From NCBI GenBank assembly GCA_031273495.1, contig JAISRT010000024.1:1-45310 (forward strand): a stretch of 45,310 nt of DNA, given 5' to 3'. Positions 4,935 through 45,310 of the stretch are shown piece after piece. Both the position numbers and the translations under genes were made by a program. Numbering within the stretch: the stretch's first letter is position 1; every line of letters starts with the position of its first letter. The notes below the pieces were generated by a model. That model was not told the origin of the DNA. It searched no databases and saw nothing but the letters and a program-made list of their open reading frames with translations. Source of the stretch: Candidatus Ancillula kalotermitis (GTDB lineage: Bacteria > Actinomycetota > Actinomycetes > Actinomycetales > Bifidobacteriaceae).

Positions 4935-4970
4935 GAGCGCTGAGTTGTCAAGTAGACGAAAATCTTGCCG

Positions 4971-5254
4971 TGTGGTTAATAAGTGGCATTTTTATGGTGG
5001 ACTGATTTTTTTTTGTCATACGATTAAGGGGCCACGGCCCCCCACCACCCGGTGGTATTGTAGCACAAAATGGTGTTGTCAAGGTGCCAAGAGTGCACTG
5101 TGGTTAATAAGTGGCATTTTTATGGTGGGCTGAATTTTTTTCGTCATACGATTAAGGGGCCACGGCCCCCCGCCACCCATGTGGCTAGTGTAGCACGAAG
5201 TTGGGGCAGAAAGGTGCCAAGGGTGCGACGTGGTTAATAAGTGCGGTTTTTATT
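4971..5254 (+). repeat. repeat family A, tandem array: partial unit 4971-5000, units 5021-5127 and 5150-5254
   Basis: ATTAAGGGGCCACGGCCCCCC...GTGGTTAATAAGTG...TTTTTAT; period about 128-130 bp. Confidence 0.95.
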
Positions 5255-9446: not shown

Positions 9447-9483
9447 GGACCAGTTTGCGGCACATCAAAAAAAATCGTTACAC

Positions 9484-9595
9484 CACTAAGGGGCCACGGC
9501 CCCCCACCACCCAAGGCCAGTGTAGCGCAAAATAGTGTCGCCAAGGTGCGGAAAGTGCGACGTGGTTAATAAGTGCCGATTTTATGGCTGGACTT
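9484..9595 (+). repeat. repeat family A unit between carB and isomerase-kinase gene
   Basis: ctaaggggccacggccccccaccaccc...cgtggttaataagtgccgattttat. Confidence 0.9.
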
Positions 9596-13402: not shown

Positions 13403-13421
13403 CAGTATTTTTTTCGAGCAC

Positions 13422-13554
13422 TCCATTAAGGGGCCACGGCCCCCCGCCACCCGGTGGCATTGTAGCATAAAATGGTGTCGTCAAGGTGTCAAGTGCGCGC
13501 TGTGGTTAATAAGTGCGGAAAGTGCAGCGTGGTTAATAAGTGCTGTTTTTATTA
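13422..13554 (+). repeat. repeat family A unit between tuf and fumC; its end contributes the fumC stop codon
   Basis: ccattaaggggccacggccccccgccacccggtggc...gtggttaataagtg...tttttatta. Confidence 0.95.
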
Positions 13555-14982
13555 CACGAAATGTTCGGGGTCTATTGCCTCGCGGAACTCTTCCACGGTC
13601 AAATCAAGCCCAAGGTCACCTTGTAACGCGGTAAACGCCTCTTGCAACGTCAGGTCATTCTCAAATGCGTGTCGTGATATTTTCGTCGCATTATCATATC
13701 CAATCCGTGGGGTAAGCGCAGTGATCAACATTAGCGAATTCATCACATTTTCCCGCATCTTCGCAGTGTTCAAATGCATCCCAGAGAGTAAATTGTCCAC
13801 AAATGAGTTCACGCTATCGCCTAGAAGACGCCCAGACTGCAAAATGTTGTAGATTATCACTGGCATAAAGGTGTTCAACTGGAAGTGCCCGTTGCTCGCT
13901 GCGAATGTAATCGTCGCATCATTTCCTATCACTTGGGAACAAACCTGAGTCAGTGCCTCGATCTGAGTAGGGTTAACCTTTCCTGGCATTATAGAACTAC
14001 CAGCCTCATTCGCCGGAATGCTCAACTCGCTCAACCCTGCACGTGGTCCCGAAACGTAGACTCTAATGTCATTGCCAATTTTCGTTAAGCTTACCGCCAG
14101 CTCTTTCAGCACTGAAGAGTATGCCACGAGCGTTGACTTCGAGGAAATCTGGAAGAACTTGTTGGCGTCGAGTGTGAAGCCGTCCTCTTCAAGATGCTCT
14201 TGTGCTTTATCGACAAATGTTCCCATTTTCGGGACGTTAAGCCCAGTTCCGACCGCGGTTCCGAAGAGCGCCAACTTGCTCAACTCGGGCAGAATTGCAA
14301 TCAACCTGTTCTTTGCGACAACAATCATCTCGACCCATGATAAAACTTCATCTCTAAAACGCATTGGCACTGCGTCCTGCATATGTGTGCGCCCGATTTT
14401 TATTGCCTCTGACTCCTTCGAGTATGCCAAATTGTTGAGCGCATCGATAAGCTTGTTTAGCGACGGTATTACCAACTCCTCAAGCTGCTTTTTCGCGGAA
14501 ATGTGCATTGCGCTCGGGAAGACGCAGTTTGAAGATTGCGCAAAATTCACGTCATCATGCGAGTCAATTGGACAAAAATTCGAGCTCCCGAACAGTTCAG
14601 GCTCCTGTATTGAAATGTAGCGGTTCGCCAAATTCGCAATCACTTCGTTAACATTCATATTGGTCTGTGTGCCCGACCCCGTCTGAAACACTACGAGAGG
14701 AAAATGCTGATCATGCTCCCCATTCTCCACCTCTGCAGCAACTTTCACTATTGCACCAAGCACAACGTCGGCAGAATCTCTCGCACTGCGCACGTTCGAT
14801 TCAAGTGCCGCCTTTGCCACGATCCTTTTGATGTAACTTATCGAGTGGATAACCTCTATCGGCATCTTTGACGTCCCAATTCGGAAATTGTCCAGGCTCC
14901 TCTGAGTGTTAATGCCCCAGAACTTGTCGTCTTCGATTTCGACACTGCCAAATGAATCCGAATATTGCATATCAGATCGCAC
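13552..14982 (-). CDS. fumC: fumarate hydratase, class II
   Basis: FQTGSGTQTNMNVNEVIANLA, KIGRTHMQDAVPM, GTAVGTGLN, signature GSSIMPGKVNPTQ; start may be 14970. Confidence 0.93.
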   Translation of the reverse strand: MRSDMQYSDSFGSVEIEDDKFWGINTQRSLDNFRIGTSKMPIEVIHSISYIKRIVAKAALESNVRSARDSADVVLGAIVKVAAEVENGEHDQHFPLVVFQTGSGTQTNMNVNEVIANLANRYISIQEPELFGSSNFCPIDSHDDVNFAQSSNCVFPSAMHISAKKQLEELVIPSLNKLIDALNNLAYSKESEAIKIGRTHMQDAVPMRFRDEVLSWVEMIVVAKNRLIAILPELSKLALFGTAVGTGLNVPKMGTFVDKAQEHLEEDGFTLDANKFFQISSKSTLVAYSSVLKELAVSLTKIGNDIRVYVSGPRAGLSELSIPANEAGSSIMPGKVNPTQIEALTQVCSQVIGNDATITFAASNGHFQLNTFMPVIIYNILQSGRLLGDSVNSFVDNLLSGMHLNTAKMRENVMNSLMLITALTPRIGYDNATKISRHAFENDLTLQEAFTALQGDLGLDLTVEEFREAIDPEHFV

Positions 14983-16138
14983 CTTTTACCGCGTCGGCAA
15001 CTATTTCTGCAAGGTTCGGCGTAAACACACTCGGGATAATGTTTGCCGTGTGTAACTCGTCGTCACTCATTGAATACGCTAATGCATTAACTGCCGCCAA
15101 CTTCATCTCGTCGGTAATTCTGGTCGCCCTCGCTTCGAGTGCCCCCTTAAAGATGCCAGGAAACGCAATCACATTGTTGATTTGGTTGTCGAAGTCGCTA
15201 CGCCCACTACCGTAGATTTTAGCGCCGTTCTCTAGTGCCACATCTGGCATAATTTCTGGCGTCGGGTTAGAGAGTGCGAATATCACTGAGTCTTCGCGCA
15301 TTTTTTTAACATCGGCCGCAGTAAGAACATTTGGCGCCGACACACCGATGAATAAATCCCTGCCTTCTACCGCATCGCTCAACGTCTGAATCTGCTCTGA
15401 AAACGCATAACCACGAGCGTTCTTGAGTTCTACTGCAAGTTCACGCTTTTCGTCATTTATGCCCTCACGTGTAGAATGGATTGCACCTCGAGAATCACAA
15501 ATCAGTATGTCCTTAACACCGACCTTGAGCAACATTTTCGCAATAGAAATACCAGCCGCACCAGCACCATTAATCACTGCCTTCACCTCGGAGAGCGGTT
15601 TTGCCACCAGACGAAACGCATTGATTACCGCCGCGCAGACAACAATTGCCGTGCCGTGTTGGTCATCGTGGAAGACTGGGATGTTAAGTCGCTCGACTAG
15701 TGCCCGCTCAATCTCGAAACACCTTGGCGCAGAGATGTCCTCAAGGTTTATGCCACCGAAAGTGGGCTCCAGCAACTCAACGGTTCTGACTATTTCATCA
15801 ACATTCTGAGTCCGCAAGCAGATCGGGAACGCGTCCACGCCAGCAAACTCTTTGAATAGTGCACACTTACCCTCCATAACAGGCATCGCGGCTTCAGGAC
15901 CAATATTGCCGAGGCCCAACACAGCAGAGCCATCAGATACTACTGCGACAGTGCGTCCTTTTAGTGTTAACTGGTTCGCGCGCTGTACGTCCTCAGCGAT
16001 TGCGCGACAAGGCTCAGCGACACCCGGTGTGTACGCGATTGACAACTCGTCTTGTGTAGTAATTGGCATGCGCGACTTCACCTCAAGTTTTCCTTGATGC
16101 TTCAGGTGCTCCGCAAGTGCAGTTTGAAAATAGTCCAT
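14972..16138 (-). CDS. malic enzyme (malate dehydrogenase, oxaloacetate-decarboxylating)
   Basis: IAYTPGVAEPCRAI, VAVVSDGSAVLGLGNIGPEAAMPVMEGKCALFKEFAGVDAFPICL, NIPVFHDDQHGTAIV, IFALSNPTPEIMPD. Confidence 0.95.
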   Translation of the reverse strand: MDYFQTALAEHLKHQGKLEVKSRMPITTQDELSIAYTPGVAEPCRAIAEDVQRANQLTLKGRTVAVVSDGSAVLGLGNIGPEAAMPVMEGKCALFKEFAGVDAFPICLRTQNVDEIVRTVELLEPTFGGINLEDISAPRCFEIERALVERLNIPVFHDDQHGTAIVVCAAVINAFRLVAKPLSEVKAVINGAGAAGISIAKMLLKVGVKDILICDSRGAIHSTREGINDEKRELAVELKNARGYAFSEQIQTLSDAVEGRDLFIGVSAPNVLTAADVKKMREDSVIFALSNPTPEIMPDVALENGAKIYGSGRSDFDNQINNVIAFPGIFKGALEARATRITDEMKLAAVNALAYSMSDDELHTANIIPSVFTPNLAEIVADAVKGAI

Positions 16139-16144
16139 ATCAGC

Positions 16145-16150
16145 AGTATA
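16145..16150 (-). promoter_or_regulatory. extended -10, 6 nt before malic enzyme ATG
   Basis: reverse strand: agtgcTATACTgctgatATG. Confidence 0.8.
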
Positions 16151-16344
16151 GCACTAACTTCATTCGCAGGGCGGCGAAGCCACCCTGACGAATTTAGTAA
16201 GTGCTATTCATAACAAATTTAACTTCGAGAGGAAGAACCGCTGCGCTCGCGGGCGGGCGGGTGCGTCTCAGGGTCCCGCGCGCTAGCGCGGGTGGACGCC
16301 GAGCTCTCCTCCCGCTTATTTGCCAAACTCGCAAGCGAGTTTGA
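16145..16344 (-). repeat. composite repeat C/D ending at the malic enzyme -10 box
   Basis: reverse strand: ggtcaaactcgcttgcgagtttggcaaataagcgg...gcagcggttcttcctctcgaagttaaatttgttatgaatagcactta...ccctgcgaatgaagttagtgctatact. Confidence 0.93.
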
Positions 16345-16387
16345 CCTCTGTGCACTTTTGTGCACTTTCCAGATTCGTCGGTCGTGC

Positions 16388-23265: not shown

Positions 23266-23367
23266 TGGATCCAGCGCAGCGTGGGACAAGCCCAAGGATG
23301 ACATGGGACCCCAAGGATGACATGAGGGGTTAATGTGTCATCTTTGGCTTTATGCCGAAGATCTACA
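23266..23367. repeat. repeat family B (hairpin cluster)
   Basis: gggacaagcccaaggatgacatg ... gtgtcatctttggctttatgccgaagatct. Confidence 0.85.
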
Positions 23368-23409
23368 AATCTTGAGGAAATCTTAACGTAAAATGACATA
23401 CAGTGTTGC

Positions 23410-33261: not shown

Positions 33262-33327
33262 CTACTTCATTAAAAGCCTCTTCAAAAAATGTTACTCCAT
33301 TAAGGGGCACTCCGAAAAAACCGGCAC

Positions 33328-33434
33328 TCCATTAAGGGGCCACGGCCCCCCGCCACCCATGTGGCCAGTGTAGCATGAAGTCGGGGCAGAAAGGCGTCAA
33401 GTGTGTGCTGTGGTTAATAAGTGTGGTTTTTATT
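33328..33434 (+). repeat. repeat family A unit between tlyA and ARH-Nudix gene
   Basis: ccattaaggggccacggccccccgccacccatgtggc...gtggttaataagtgtggtttttat. Confidence 0.95.
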
Positions 33435-33474
33435 GGGCAAAGAGGTTCTGCGATATGTAAATGGAATAATCTGC

Positions 33475-36120: not shown

Positions 36121-36141
36121 CTTCGGTTTGCGCCCCTCTAT

Positions 36142-36352
36142 TGTCATCCTTGGGCACACTGCCCCTTCATGTCATCCCAGCGTAGCGTGGCATAAAGCCA
36201 AGGGCAGGCGCGGCTTGTCCGTCCCATGTCATCCTTGGGCAGTCCGCCCCATGTCATCCTTGGGCACACTGCCCCCTCATGTCATCCTTGGCTTTATGCC
36301 GAGGATCTACTGACACGATGTACTCTATGTACCCTCGGGACAAGCCCAAGTG
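36142..36352. repeat. repeat family B cluster, multiple units
   Basis: tgtcatccttgggc repeated; tgtcatccttggctttatgccgaggatct; cctcgggacaagcccaag. Confidence 0.92.
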
Positions 36353-36690
36353 TGACAGAATGGGTCAAACTCGCTTGCGAGTTTGGCAAATAAGCGGAAG
36401 AGGGGTGTCGCGTCCACCCGCGCGCTAGCGCGCGGGACCCTGAGACGCACCCGCCCCAGCGGCGGACAGCGTAGCGAATAGGCGCTCGATTCATTCGGCG
36501 CCGTCAATGAGCGGAGTGTGCTTGAGAAGTGTGAAACACTTCGAGGTCCGCGCCGGAAAGCGACGATATAGCGAGCGTAGCGAGCGCTGAGGAGCGAGGC
36601 TCAAAGCGTGAGCAGCGGTTCGTCTCCCTGACGATTAATCTGTTATGAATAGCACTTATTATTCCGGAGGAAAATTTGCGAATGAAGTCA
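36352..36690 (+). repeat. composite repeat C/D copy A
   Basis: gtgacagaatgggtcaaactcgcttgcgagtttggcaaataagcgg...gttatgaatagcacttat...gcgaatgaagt. Confidence 0.88.
36417..36436. repeat. 20-bp perfect palindrome inside composite repeat copy A
   Basis: CCCGCGCGCTAGCGCGCGGG. Confidence 0.98.
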
Positions 36691-36971
36691 AATATGGTCA
36701 AACTCGCTTGCCAGTTTGGCAAATAAGCGGAAGGAGAGCTCGAGAGGAGAGCGCAGCGGTTCTTCCTCTCGAAGTTAAATTTGTTATGAATAGCACTTAC
36801 TGAATTCGCCGCATTTGGTTCGATCGCTCCGCGCTCTCATTACGCCCCTCGCACAGGCTTCGCCAGTGCTCAAACACACTCCACTCGCTTTACGCCGCCG
36901 AATAAATCGTCGGCTGCTCGCTACGCTGGGCATGTGCTTCGCCACCCTGCGAATGAAGTTAGTGCTATACT
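36691..36971 (+). repeat. composite repeat C/D copy B ending at the TPM gene -10 box
   Basis: ggtcaaactcgcttgccagtttggcaaataagcgg...cagcggttcttcctctcgaagttaaatttgttatgaatagcacttactgaattcg...ccctgcgaatgaagttagtgctatact. Confidence 0.93.
36966..36971 (+). promoter_or_regulatory. extended -10, 6 nt before TPM gene ATG
   Basis: agtgcTATACTacagatATG. Confidence 0.8.
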
Positions 36972-36977
36972 ACAGAT

Positions 36978-40634
<3,657 letters not shown>

Positions 40635-42349: not shown

Positions 42350-42883
42350 TTATCGCTCGTCAAGCACTGCGCGAACTATATCCTCAACGCTGGCTAGTGC
42401 GCCACGTCCCTCCACTCCACACGCTAGTCGGGCTGTCCGCGGCTCGATGACTTCCCAGCCGCGGTTTCGCAAAGTTTCTAGGTTACTGCGGGTTGCAGCG
42501 TTCTCAAGCATCACGGTGTTCATTGCGGGGGCGACCACTTTCCTTGTCGCGTCGGGGAGTGCGAGAACCATAGAGCTTAACTGGTCGTCAGCAATGCCGT
42601 GCGCAATTTTAGCGATGATGTTCGCGGTTGCGGGGGCCAAGCAAAATACATCGACACTCTGCGGAAGGTCAACGTGCACAATTTTCTCTGCCACTGGTTC
42701 GTCAAGCACATCGAGATAGACATAATTCTGGCTCAGCGCTTGCATAGTCAGTGGTGTGATGAACCCGCAGGCATGCTTACTCATTACCACGCTCACTTCG
42801 ATATCACGTTTTTTGAGCGCAGAAACAACATCGGCCGCCTTGTATGCAGCAATCGATCCAGAAACACCGAGCAGTACCTTAAT
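42350..42883 (-). CDS. coaC: phosphopantothenoylcysteine decarboxylase (CoaC domain only); putative ATT start
   Basis: IKVLLGVSGSIAAYKAADVVSALKKRDIEVSVVMSKHACGFITPLTMQALS, LAPATANIIAKIAHGIADDQLSS, APAMNTVML. Confidence 0.9.
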   Translation of the reverse strand: MKVLLGVSGSIAAYKAADVVSALKKRDIEVSVVMSKHACGFITPLTMQALSQNYVYLDVLDEPVAEKIVHVDLPQSVDVFCLAPATANIIAKIAHGIADDQLSSMVLALPDATRKVVAPAMNTVMLENAATRSNLETLRNRGWEVIEPRTARLACGVEGRGALASVEDIVRAVLDER

Positions 42884-42895: not shown

Positions 42896-42957
42896 GCACG
42901 ACACCCCTCTTCCGCTTATTTGCCAAACTCGCAAGCGAGTTTGACCCATTCTGTCAC
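42890..42957 (-). repeat. truncated composite repeat C abutting the coaC promoter
   Basis: reverse strand gtgacagaatgggtcaaactcgcttgcgagtttggcaaataagcggaagaggggtgtcg identical to 36352-36410, then tgctatact. Confidence 0.95.
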
Positions 42958-43178
42958 CCTTGGCTTTATGCCACGCTGCGCTGGGATGACACTGCGAGGG
43001 TGTAATGAGAGCGTGGAGCGTGTGTCATTCTTGGCTTTATGCCGAGAATCTATAATGGCATGACTGACGCGTGGATCCTCGGGACAAGCCCAAGGATGAC
43101 ATGGTGGCGCGGTGTGTCCGTTACCGTGTGTCACCCTTGGCGTCCCATGTCACCCTTGGGCTTGTCCCGAGGGTCCAC
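42950..43178. repeat. repeat family B cluster
   Basis: tgtcacccttggctttatgcc, cctcgggacaagcccaaggatgacatg, tgtcacccttgggcttgtcccgagggtcc. Confidence 0.92.
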
Positions 43179-43241
43179 ATTGGCGCGGAGCGTTCGAACC
43201 AAATCACGTGACGCTAATTTAACAATCCGGACGGAGTGTGC

Positions 43242-45116: not shown

Positions 45117-45236
45117 CTCGCGCCTCCTCATGTCATCCTTGGGCTTGTCCGTCTCATGTCATCCCTCGGCATAAAGCCAAGGGCAGGCGCGGGCTTGTCC
45201 GTCCCATGTCATCCTTGGGCTTGTCCCGAGGATCTC
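45117..45236. repeat. repeat family B cluster downstream of phoH
   Basis: tgtcatccttgggcttgtcc ... catgtcatccttgggcttgtcccgaggatct. Confidence 0.92.
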
Positions 45237-45310
45237 GCTAATCGCTCGATTTTCTGCGTTTGTCGCCAAAAATATACAACAAGTTGTCCATTGTGGCTCG
45301 TAAACTTGAA

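Follow-up and report, generated by a model that had tools for sequence, protein, structure and literature searches.

The genome of Candidatus Ancillula kalotermitis holds a species-specific family of non-coding, modular palindromic repeats whose right end, where it lies in front of a gene, should probably act as a promoter, mostly of leaderless mRNAs. The best reading of these sequences is a non-autonomous, promoter-carrying repeat similar to CREE and BOX elements. The window analyzed here (the whole stretch of 45,310 nt) is contig C13 of a genome of 1,070,202 bases in 62 contigs that is 81% complete. We read the genome sequence as stretches around matches, and these have a GC content of about 49.7%. 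A. kalotermitis Kf353_bin77 is reported to have 1.07 Mbp and 49.22% GC; the Ancillula MAGs are described as endosymbionts of termite gut flagellates, and transposable elements, prophages and CRISPR were reported in none of the Ancillula MAGs of that survey (PMC11707648). The genome-reduced bacterium is probably a symbiont of termite-gut protists.

The repeat upstream of the malic enzyme and TPM genes

An earlier note on this DNA described three colinear blocks common to the regions upstream of the malic enzyme and TPM genes. Reading both loci directly, we found all three in the orientation reported, on the minus strand at 16346-16312, 16243-16197 and 16171-16145 on the malic-enzyme side and on the plus strand at 36696-36731, 36753-36799 and 36945-36971 on the TPM side. 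A repeat search of the window returned the blocks as inverted pairs (60, 47 and 45 nt, at 98%, 96% and 93%, respectively). With three or fewer mismatches, GTTATGAATAGCACTTA and GCGAATGAAGTTAGTGCTA each match three times in the window, against 0.13 and 0.01 matches expected from shuffles, respectively. Also in agreement with the note, both upstream regions end in the same extended -10 GTGCTATACT, six bases 5' of the ATG, and the shared sequence passes through this box and stops before the gene, the spacer between -10 and ATG being weakly shared. The downstream genes are unrelated, which rules out an ancestral duplication of the locus and bears out the proposed dispersed repeat. Ancestral duplication and copies without a link to start codons were the two observations that would have spoken against the note's reading; we looked for both and found neither.

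In the malic-enzyme copy (minus strand), the element begins with hairpin H1 (GTCAAACTCGC..GCGAGTTTGGC; 16322..16345), which has a 20-nt palindrome and is evident both in the sequence and in the folds. The position of H2 is taken by an inserted nested hairpin, L (GGCGTCCACCCGCGCTAGCGCGCGGG..GACGC; 16263..16300), which appears in the fold and is present in only some copies. The conserved connector C (GTTATGAATAGCACTTA; 16198..16214) follows, as the 5' arm of hairpin H3 and an inverted copy of the -10 region. H3 itself (16148..16207) is seen in the folds and in compensatory X and Y alleles; its 3' arm takes in the first bases of the -10, and its inner stem is allele X in this copy (CAGGGTGGCTTCGCCGCCCTG; 16187-16167). 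The terminal joint J (GCGAATGAAGT; 16157..16167) leads into the predicted extended -10 promoter (16145..16154), and the ATG of the malic enzyme gene (388 aa; 14972..16138; PF00390/PF03949) lies 6 nt downstream. This copy sits between divergent genes.

The TPM upstream region holds two units, of which the note's interval of 36691-36971 had taken in one. The first composite unit (36363..36693, plus strand) ends in an internal joint (GCGAATGAAGTCAAAT) without a -10. The second (36696..36971, plus strand) is made up of H1, H2 allele B1, C, a long Z insert, J (36949-36959) and the -10 (36962-36971), and the TPM-domain protein gene (36978..38408, plus strand; PF04536, E 1.8e-7) has its ATG 6 nt past this box. 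A third copy, truncated to H1 and connector (42909..42946, minus strand), is followed directly by GTGCTATACT (42899-42890, minus strand) and then by a gene for a CoaBC-like flavoprotein, whose start is apparently an ATT at 42883 (minus strand). Searched for known RNA families, the window and five loci of the same genome yielded one tRNA and nothing else.

Other repeats occur in the window as well. A different palindromic family (TGTCATCCTTGGGCTTGTCCCGAGGATC; 23271-23368, 36141-36357, 42942-43180 and 45121-45239) usually lies to the left of the promoter element and at other loci near a J joint; its cluster left of the TPM-side element (36141..36357, plus strand) carries TGTCATCCTTGGG... Repeats of a second dispersed family are about 110-130 bp long (4956-5253, 9467-9587, 13407-13552 and 33284-33435) and combine a -10-like site, TGCTACA[CA]T, with a GGGGCC..GGCCCC hairpin (opposite strand GTGGTTAATAAGTG..TTTTTATG); several copies also have a stretch that resembles TTGACA. 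The family is possibly a multicopy small RNA or a terminator unit.

Copies across the genome and the anatomy of the unit

The genome confirms that the repeat family is larger by far than first reported. With the 237-bp malic-enzyme element as query, BLAST returned 79 pieces in its own genome. Exact genomic copies number 26 for the C block, 24 for the right end GAATGAAGTTAGTGCTATA and 25 for the 20-nt palindrome of H1, which has none in congeners. The joint J, written as GCGAATGARGT, occurs 59 times, and the reversed pattern not once. Copies were sorted with a slightly looser joint, within the fetched stretches, into 46 terminal copies, whose joints run within 1-3 nt into GTGCTATA, 10 internal joints (..CAAATAAGGTCAAACTCGC) and 6 others; the internal and other joints are without promoter and lie inside arrays or at left boundaries. 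Because several contigs end inside copies, the copy number is a lower bound, and the repeat may explain breaks of the MAG at intergenic repeats.

An open reading frame follows 44 of the 46 terminal copies, with ATG, GTG or TTG exactly 6-7 nt past the -10 in 31. In a 45th copy (L057), an ATA at +6 is in phase with the glgX-like frame that follows, and four copies first classed as 'leader' (L050, L055, L060 and L062) have an in-frame ATA, ATT or ATC at +6. Predicted leaderless sites at 6-7 nt therefore number about 36 of 46 when ATH starts are included. The sole terminal copy without a frame (L045, 135 minus) runs into another repeat. The association with start codons for which the note had proposed a genome-wide search is found at 45 of the 46 terminal copies, in the orientation of the gene.

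The downstream proteins, named by their Pfam and NCBIfam domain hits, include the lysyl- (lysS), phenylalanyl- and threonyl-tRNA synthetases (thrS), DNA gyrase B (gyrB), primase (dnaG), a peptide release factor, EF-P, TypA (typA) and trigger factor (tig). Metabolic genes are represented by malic enzyme, glucose-6-phosphate isomerase (pgi), triosephosphate isomerase (tpiA), enolase (eno), GcpE, GlgB and xylulokinase; the TPM protein, ATP synthase gamma, CrgA and transporters also occur. Because these genes are unrelated and mostly housekeeping, with no common pathway evident, no regulon is apparent.

A separate observation concerns start codons. At 119 promoter-like sites matching TGCTA[TC]A[CA]T, frames of at least 100 codons at +6 begin with ATG, GTG or TTG 42 times and with ATA, ATT or ATC 11 times; at +7, frames beginning with ATA, ATT or ATC number 0. 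Such candidate starts are seen at 42883 (minus strand) in the window and at L055, L057, L060, L062, L066, L033, L052 and other loci, for instance in a CoaBC-like (IKVLLGVSGSIAAYK) and a TpiA-like (ISRRKIVVANFKMN) frame. This suggests leaderless mRNAs with apparent non-canonical AUH start codons.

The full unit consists of three hairpins (H1, H2 and H3) with near-invariant linkers between them. In the short unit the order is H1, linker, H2, linker GTTATGAATAGCACTTACTGAATTCG, inner H3 stem, J and -10; the right end combines J (GCGAATGAAGTTA) with the extended -10 of the genome. Over all copies the modules run as T-repeats, (J), H1, linker, H2 or nested L, C, X/Y/Z, J and -10, and this order is strict, although some copies are without certain modules. 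Single-strand folding gives all three hairpins (z -7.9 for L044), and the malic-enzyme copy folded as DNA has z -6.2; the two-unit TPM array folded as one was no better than shuffles. In H3, base pairing joins the 5' arm (ATAGCACT..) to the -10 region (..AGTGCTAT), and some of the -10 lies in the 3' arm.

Three alleles are seen of H2 and two, X and Y, of the inner H3 stem. In both, the two sides of the stem swap together, and the H2 and inner-H3 alleles are reassorted between copies. Of the stem-allele cells, 96.5% pair, compared with 35-45% in slid controls, and 28 cells are changed on both sides, compared with 12.4 in shuffles. As few independent alleles exist, we interpret this as hairpins exchanged whole and not as many independent compensations. 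One recombinant (L036:2263) joins the 5' half of one H2 allele to the 3' half of another, with the switch inside the shared loop.

Origin of the -10 and spread of the element

The claim of the earlier note that the repeat carries a promoter stands in part: the repeat is dispersed and linked to start codons, and the -10 boxes that go with it vary far less than others in the genome, but an element-borne -10 is an overall trend, and the box may be native at single loci. Among leaderless starts, GTGCTATACT is present at 29 of 30 element-linked and 15 of 44 other starts, and TATACT at 29 of 30 and 19 of 44 (Fisher 9e-7), the 44 comparison starts having been drawn by a loose pattern that likely includes some chance matches. 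The six-base spacer is hardly more alike among element copies (identity 0.56) than among others (0.43; permutation p 0.05, marginal), which places the end of the common sequence near the -10.

It is conceivable, and in our view unlikely, that the -10 is native to each gene and that hairpins insert, or are tolerated, just upstream of it, the element bringing no promoter; extended -10 leaderless promoters need no -35, so hairpins would be tolerated exactly at that position. This explanation gains from the repeat-less genes that are served by the same core, GTGCTATACTA[GC]TGATATG (for instance at 1294 and 16385 in the window), sometimes with a TTTGACATACTGTAG box just 5' of it. It gains also from two AAA-ATPase paralogues (C62:13073 and C19:19), which are 96-97% identical from GTGCTATACT on, while their upstream DNA differs completely and J is found in only one. 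These genes and this pair make a native -10 conceivable at some sites. J-to-promoter junctions vary by 1-2 nt, and the variation (A, AT, CT, C, T) falls exactly between J and GTG, which speaks likewise for a native -10. Internal array copies have J without a -10, and the truncated copy at 42909-42946 meets its -10 at 42899 without a J. Against a native -10 at every gene stand the much greater uniformity of the box at element-linked genes, the nearly fixed J-to-(-10) register across 46 loci and the pairing of the H3 5' arm with the -10. A further argument comes from L048:3320-3360 (plus strand), where an inverted H3 arm (GAATTCAGTAAGTGCTATACT) has its own GTGCTATACT and faces a divergent gene, whose apparent promoter it is. 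Each end of the element may thus carry a promoter that faces outward. On balance the trend favours a -10 borne by the element.

We consider it improbable that J and the -10 form a selected operator or promoter of one regulator or sigma factor, with the hairpins as unrelated junk. J and the -10 do occur with many upstream contexts, but J is also found at the 10 internal and 6 other sites that have no promoter, the targets share no function, the strict order of the hairpins is unlike random junk, and the sequence is absent from congeners, which are close relatives. Still harder to credit is that the copies are REP-like terminators or insulators of the upstream genes, near promoters simply because intergenic regions are short. 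Strong hairpins in the intergenic DNA of a compact genome would fit this, yet in 45 of the 46 terminal copies the element points toward the gene that follows and finishes at that gene's -10, and the malic-enzyme copy lies between divergent genes, so no terminator is needed there.

Under the favoured reading of a promoter-carrying repeat, copies would have been placed upstream of about 46 unrelated genes, so that dozens of genes would share one promoter module, and transcripts would start at or next to the start codon in most element-linked genes. We infer that the element brings its -10 along, that this box is the working promoter, and that the family spread by copying and not by convergence. 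The distribution of copies suggests that a dispersed repeat has replaced many native promoters.

Several observations bear on how the copies spread. No match to the Y1 (RAYT) transposase PF01797 was found in the 81% complete genome, while 5 of 14 control genomes have matches, and the IS630-type DDE_3 transposase PF13358 was likewise not found in it; mobilization by a resident RAYT/IS200 or IS630 enzyme was rejected for this reason. We also set aside a phage or plasmid origin (no exact matches in viral contigs and none in plasmids) and an attC/integron reading (none of the modules is coding, and they show no core-site logic). Some units have J at either end, in direct repeat, where it may be an array joint; this fits either tandem array growth or insertion at J. 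No clear target-site duplication was found around copies; TA lies on the right of terminal copies and AA on the left of nearly all. Relatives (54-61% protein identity) are too diverged to offer a clean empty orthologous site at malic enzyme; in L094, from another Ancillula, the malic enzyme gene directly follows its neighbour. At L038:2741-3510 (minus strand), a two-ORF cassette, made up of the gene of a PIN-domain protein (PF13470) and a small upstream ORF, is inserted at the xylulokinase 5' end; on either side of the cassette stands one copy of a segment of roughly 90 bp that extends from the loop of hairpin X through J and the -10 to the first xylulokinase codons. Because these duplicates span the loop, J and -10, the insertion appears to have regenerated the predicted promoter, with its breakpoint in the hairpin loop. 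The hairpins may have provoked recombination or template switching; another possible route is transposition in trans, by an enzyme since lost.

The element sequence is absent from three genomes of the same genus and from the other relatives searched, except for a weak 36-bp match in one more distant genome. In the congener G001 a different sequence (AAAATGTCATA-N4..8-TGNTATAAT) is arranged in the same way, in 68 copies with 0 for the reversed control; this pattern has 7 copies in G003 and 0 in G002. At the G001 loci sampled, a start codon lies 5-8 nt downstream in 22 of 23, 17 of 23 match motifs of a common mosaic block upstream, and shared 8-mers number 1.43 per pair compared with 0.09 when shuffled; the G003 loci have little in common beyond the core. 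Because of this counterpart in G001, a dispersed block fused to leaderless promoters seems recurrent in the genus, its sequence differing from case to case. Examples of promoter-fused repeats in G001 are L203:7018-7091, L204:13739-13811 and L213:3725-3799, and a CTTGACAAGCATAAAAAAGTGTGGTATAAT variant occurs at several of its loci.

A broader proposal, which we offer tentatively and hold to be somewhat doubtful, is that Ancillula endosymbionts repeatedly copy promoter modules onto unrelated housekeeping genes without a transposase, via hairpin recombination or template switching, and that each species amplifies its own promoter-ended repeat, so that transcription of core genes would largely converge on one promoter. 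If the favoured reading of a promoter-carrying repeat is right, dozens of genes in a reduced symbiont genome, mostly housekeeping ones, have had their promoters taken over by a repeat family, a natural wholesale promoter replacement in a lineage reported to be without transposable elements, and promoter propagation becomes testable in the sequence data of related symbionts.

Comparison with known repeats

BOX elements of Streptococcus pneumoniae are intergenic, modular mosaics of hairpin blocks with variable composition, and the Ancillula element resembles them as a hairpin-block mosaic. BOX copies are not known to end in a -10 at a start codon, as the copies do here. The 26-bp Correia inverted repeats are expected to differ from the Ancillula element in sequence. 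We compared both CREE and BOX with the element by description.

REP/BIME sequences are dispersed palindromes in composite arrays (PMC2817692); unlike the REP/BIME-RAYT system, the Ancillula repeat has a fixed orientation before genes, in a genome where Y1 was not found. As in MITEs of the IS630/Tc1 type, there are terminal inverted repeats, namely the H3 arms TAGCACTTACTGAATTCG and CGAATGAAGTTAGTGCTA, which pair at 15 of 18 positions; unlike for those MITEs, no related transposase was found in the genome.

CREE/NEMIS of Neisseria are short, non-coding and palindromic, number more than 100 copies per genome, encode no transposase of their own and are restricted to species or genus; the CREE end gives a -35 and a partial -10 (Black promoter) that the target completes (PMC2649163). 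Similarly, the Ancillula repeat consists of dispersed non-coding palindromes whose end forms a promoter predicted from sequence, with an extended -10 at 46 terminal copies. It differs in its modular three-hairpin unit, where CREE has one core between terminal repeats, in the fusion of nearly every terminal copy to a start codon, and perhaps in that no clear target duplication was found. Putative mobile promoters (Matus-Garcia 2012; van Passel 2014; cited in PMC8049555) are likewise a single promoter sequence dispersed in front of genes that are not homologous, all within one genome. The Ancillula genome, too, has homologous promoters ahead of non-homologous genes; with regard to movement or horizontal transfer, the observation is a presence restricted to this species. 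Unlike the mobile promoters as cited there, the Ancillula repeat is tied to a hairpin mosaic and to dozens of housekeeping genes. Without claiming membership in a known family, we find the Ancillula repeat best described, by analogy, as one that would work like CREE promoters and putative mobile promoters.
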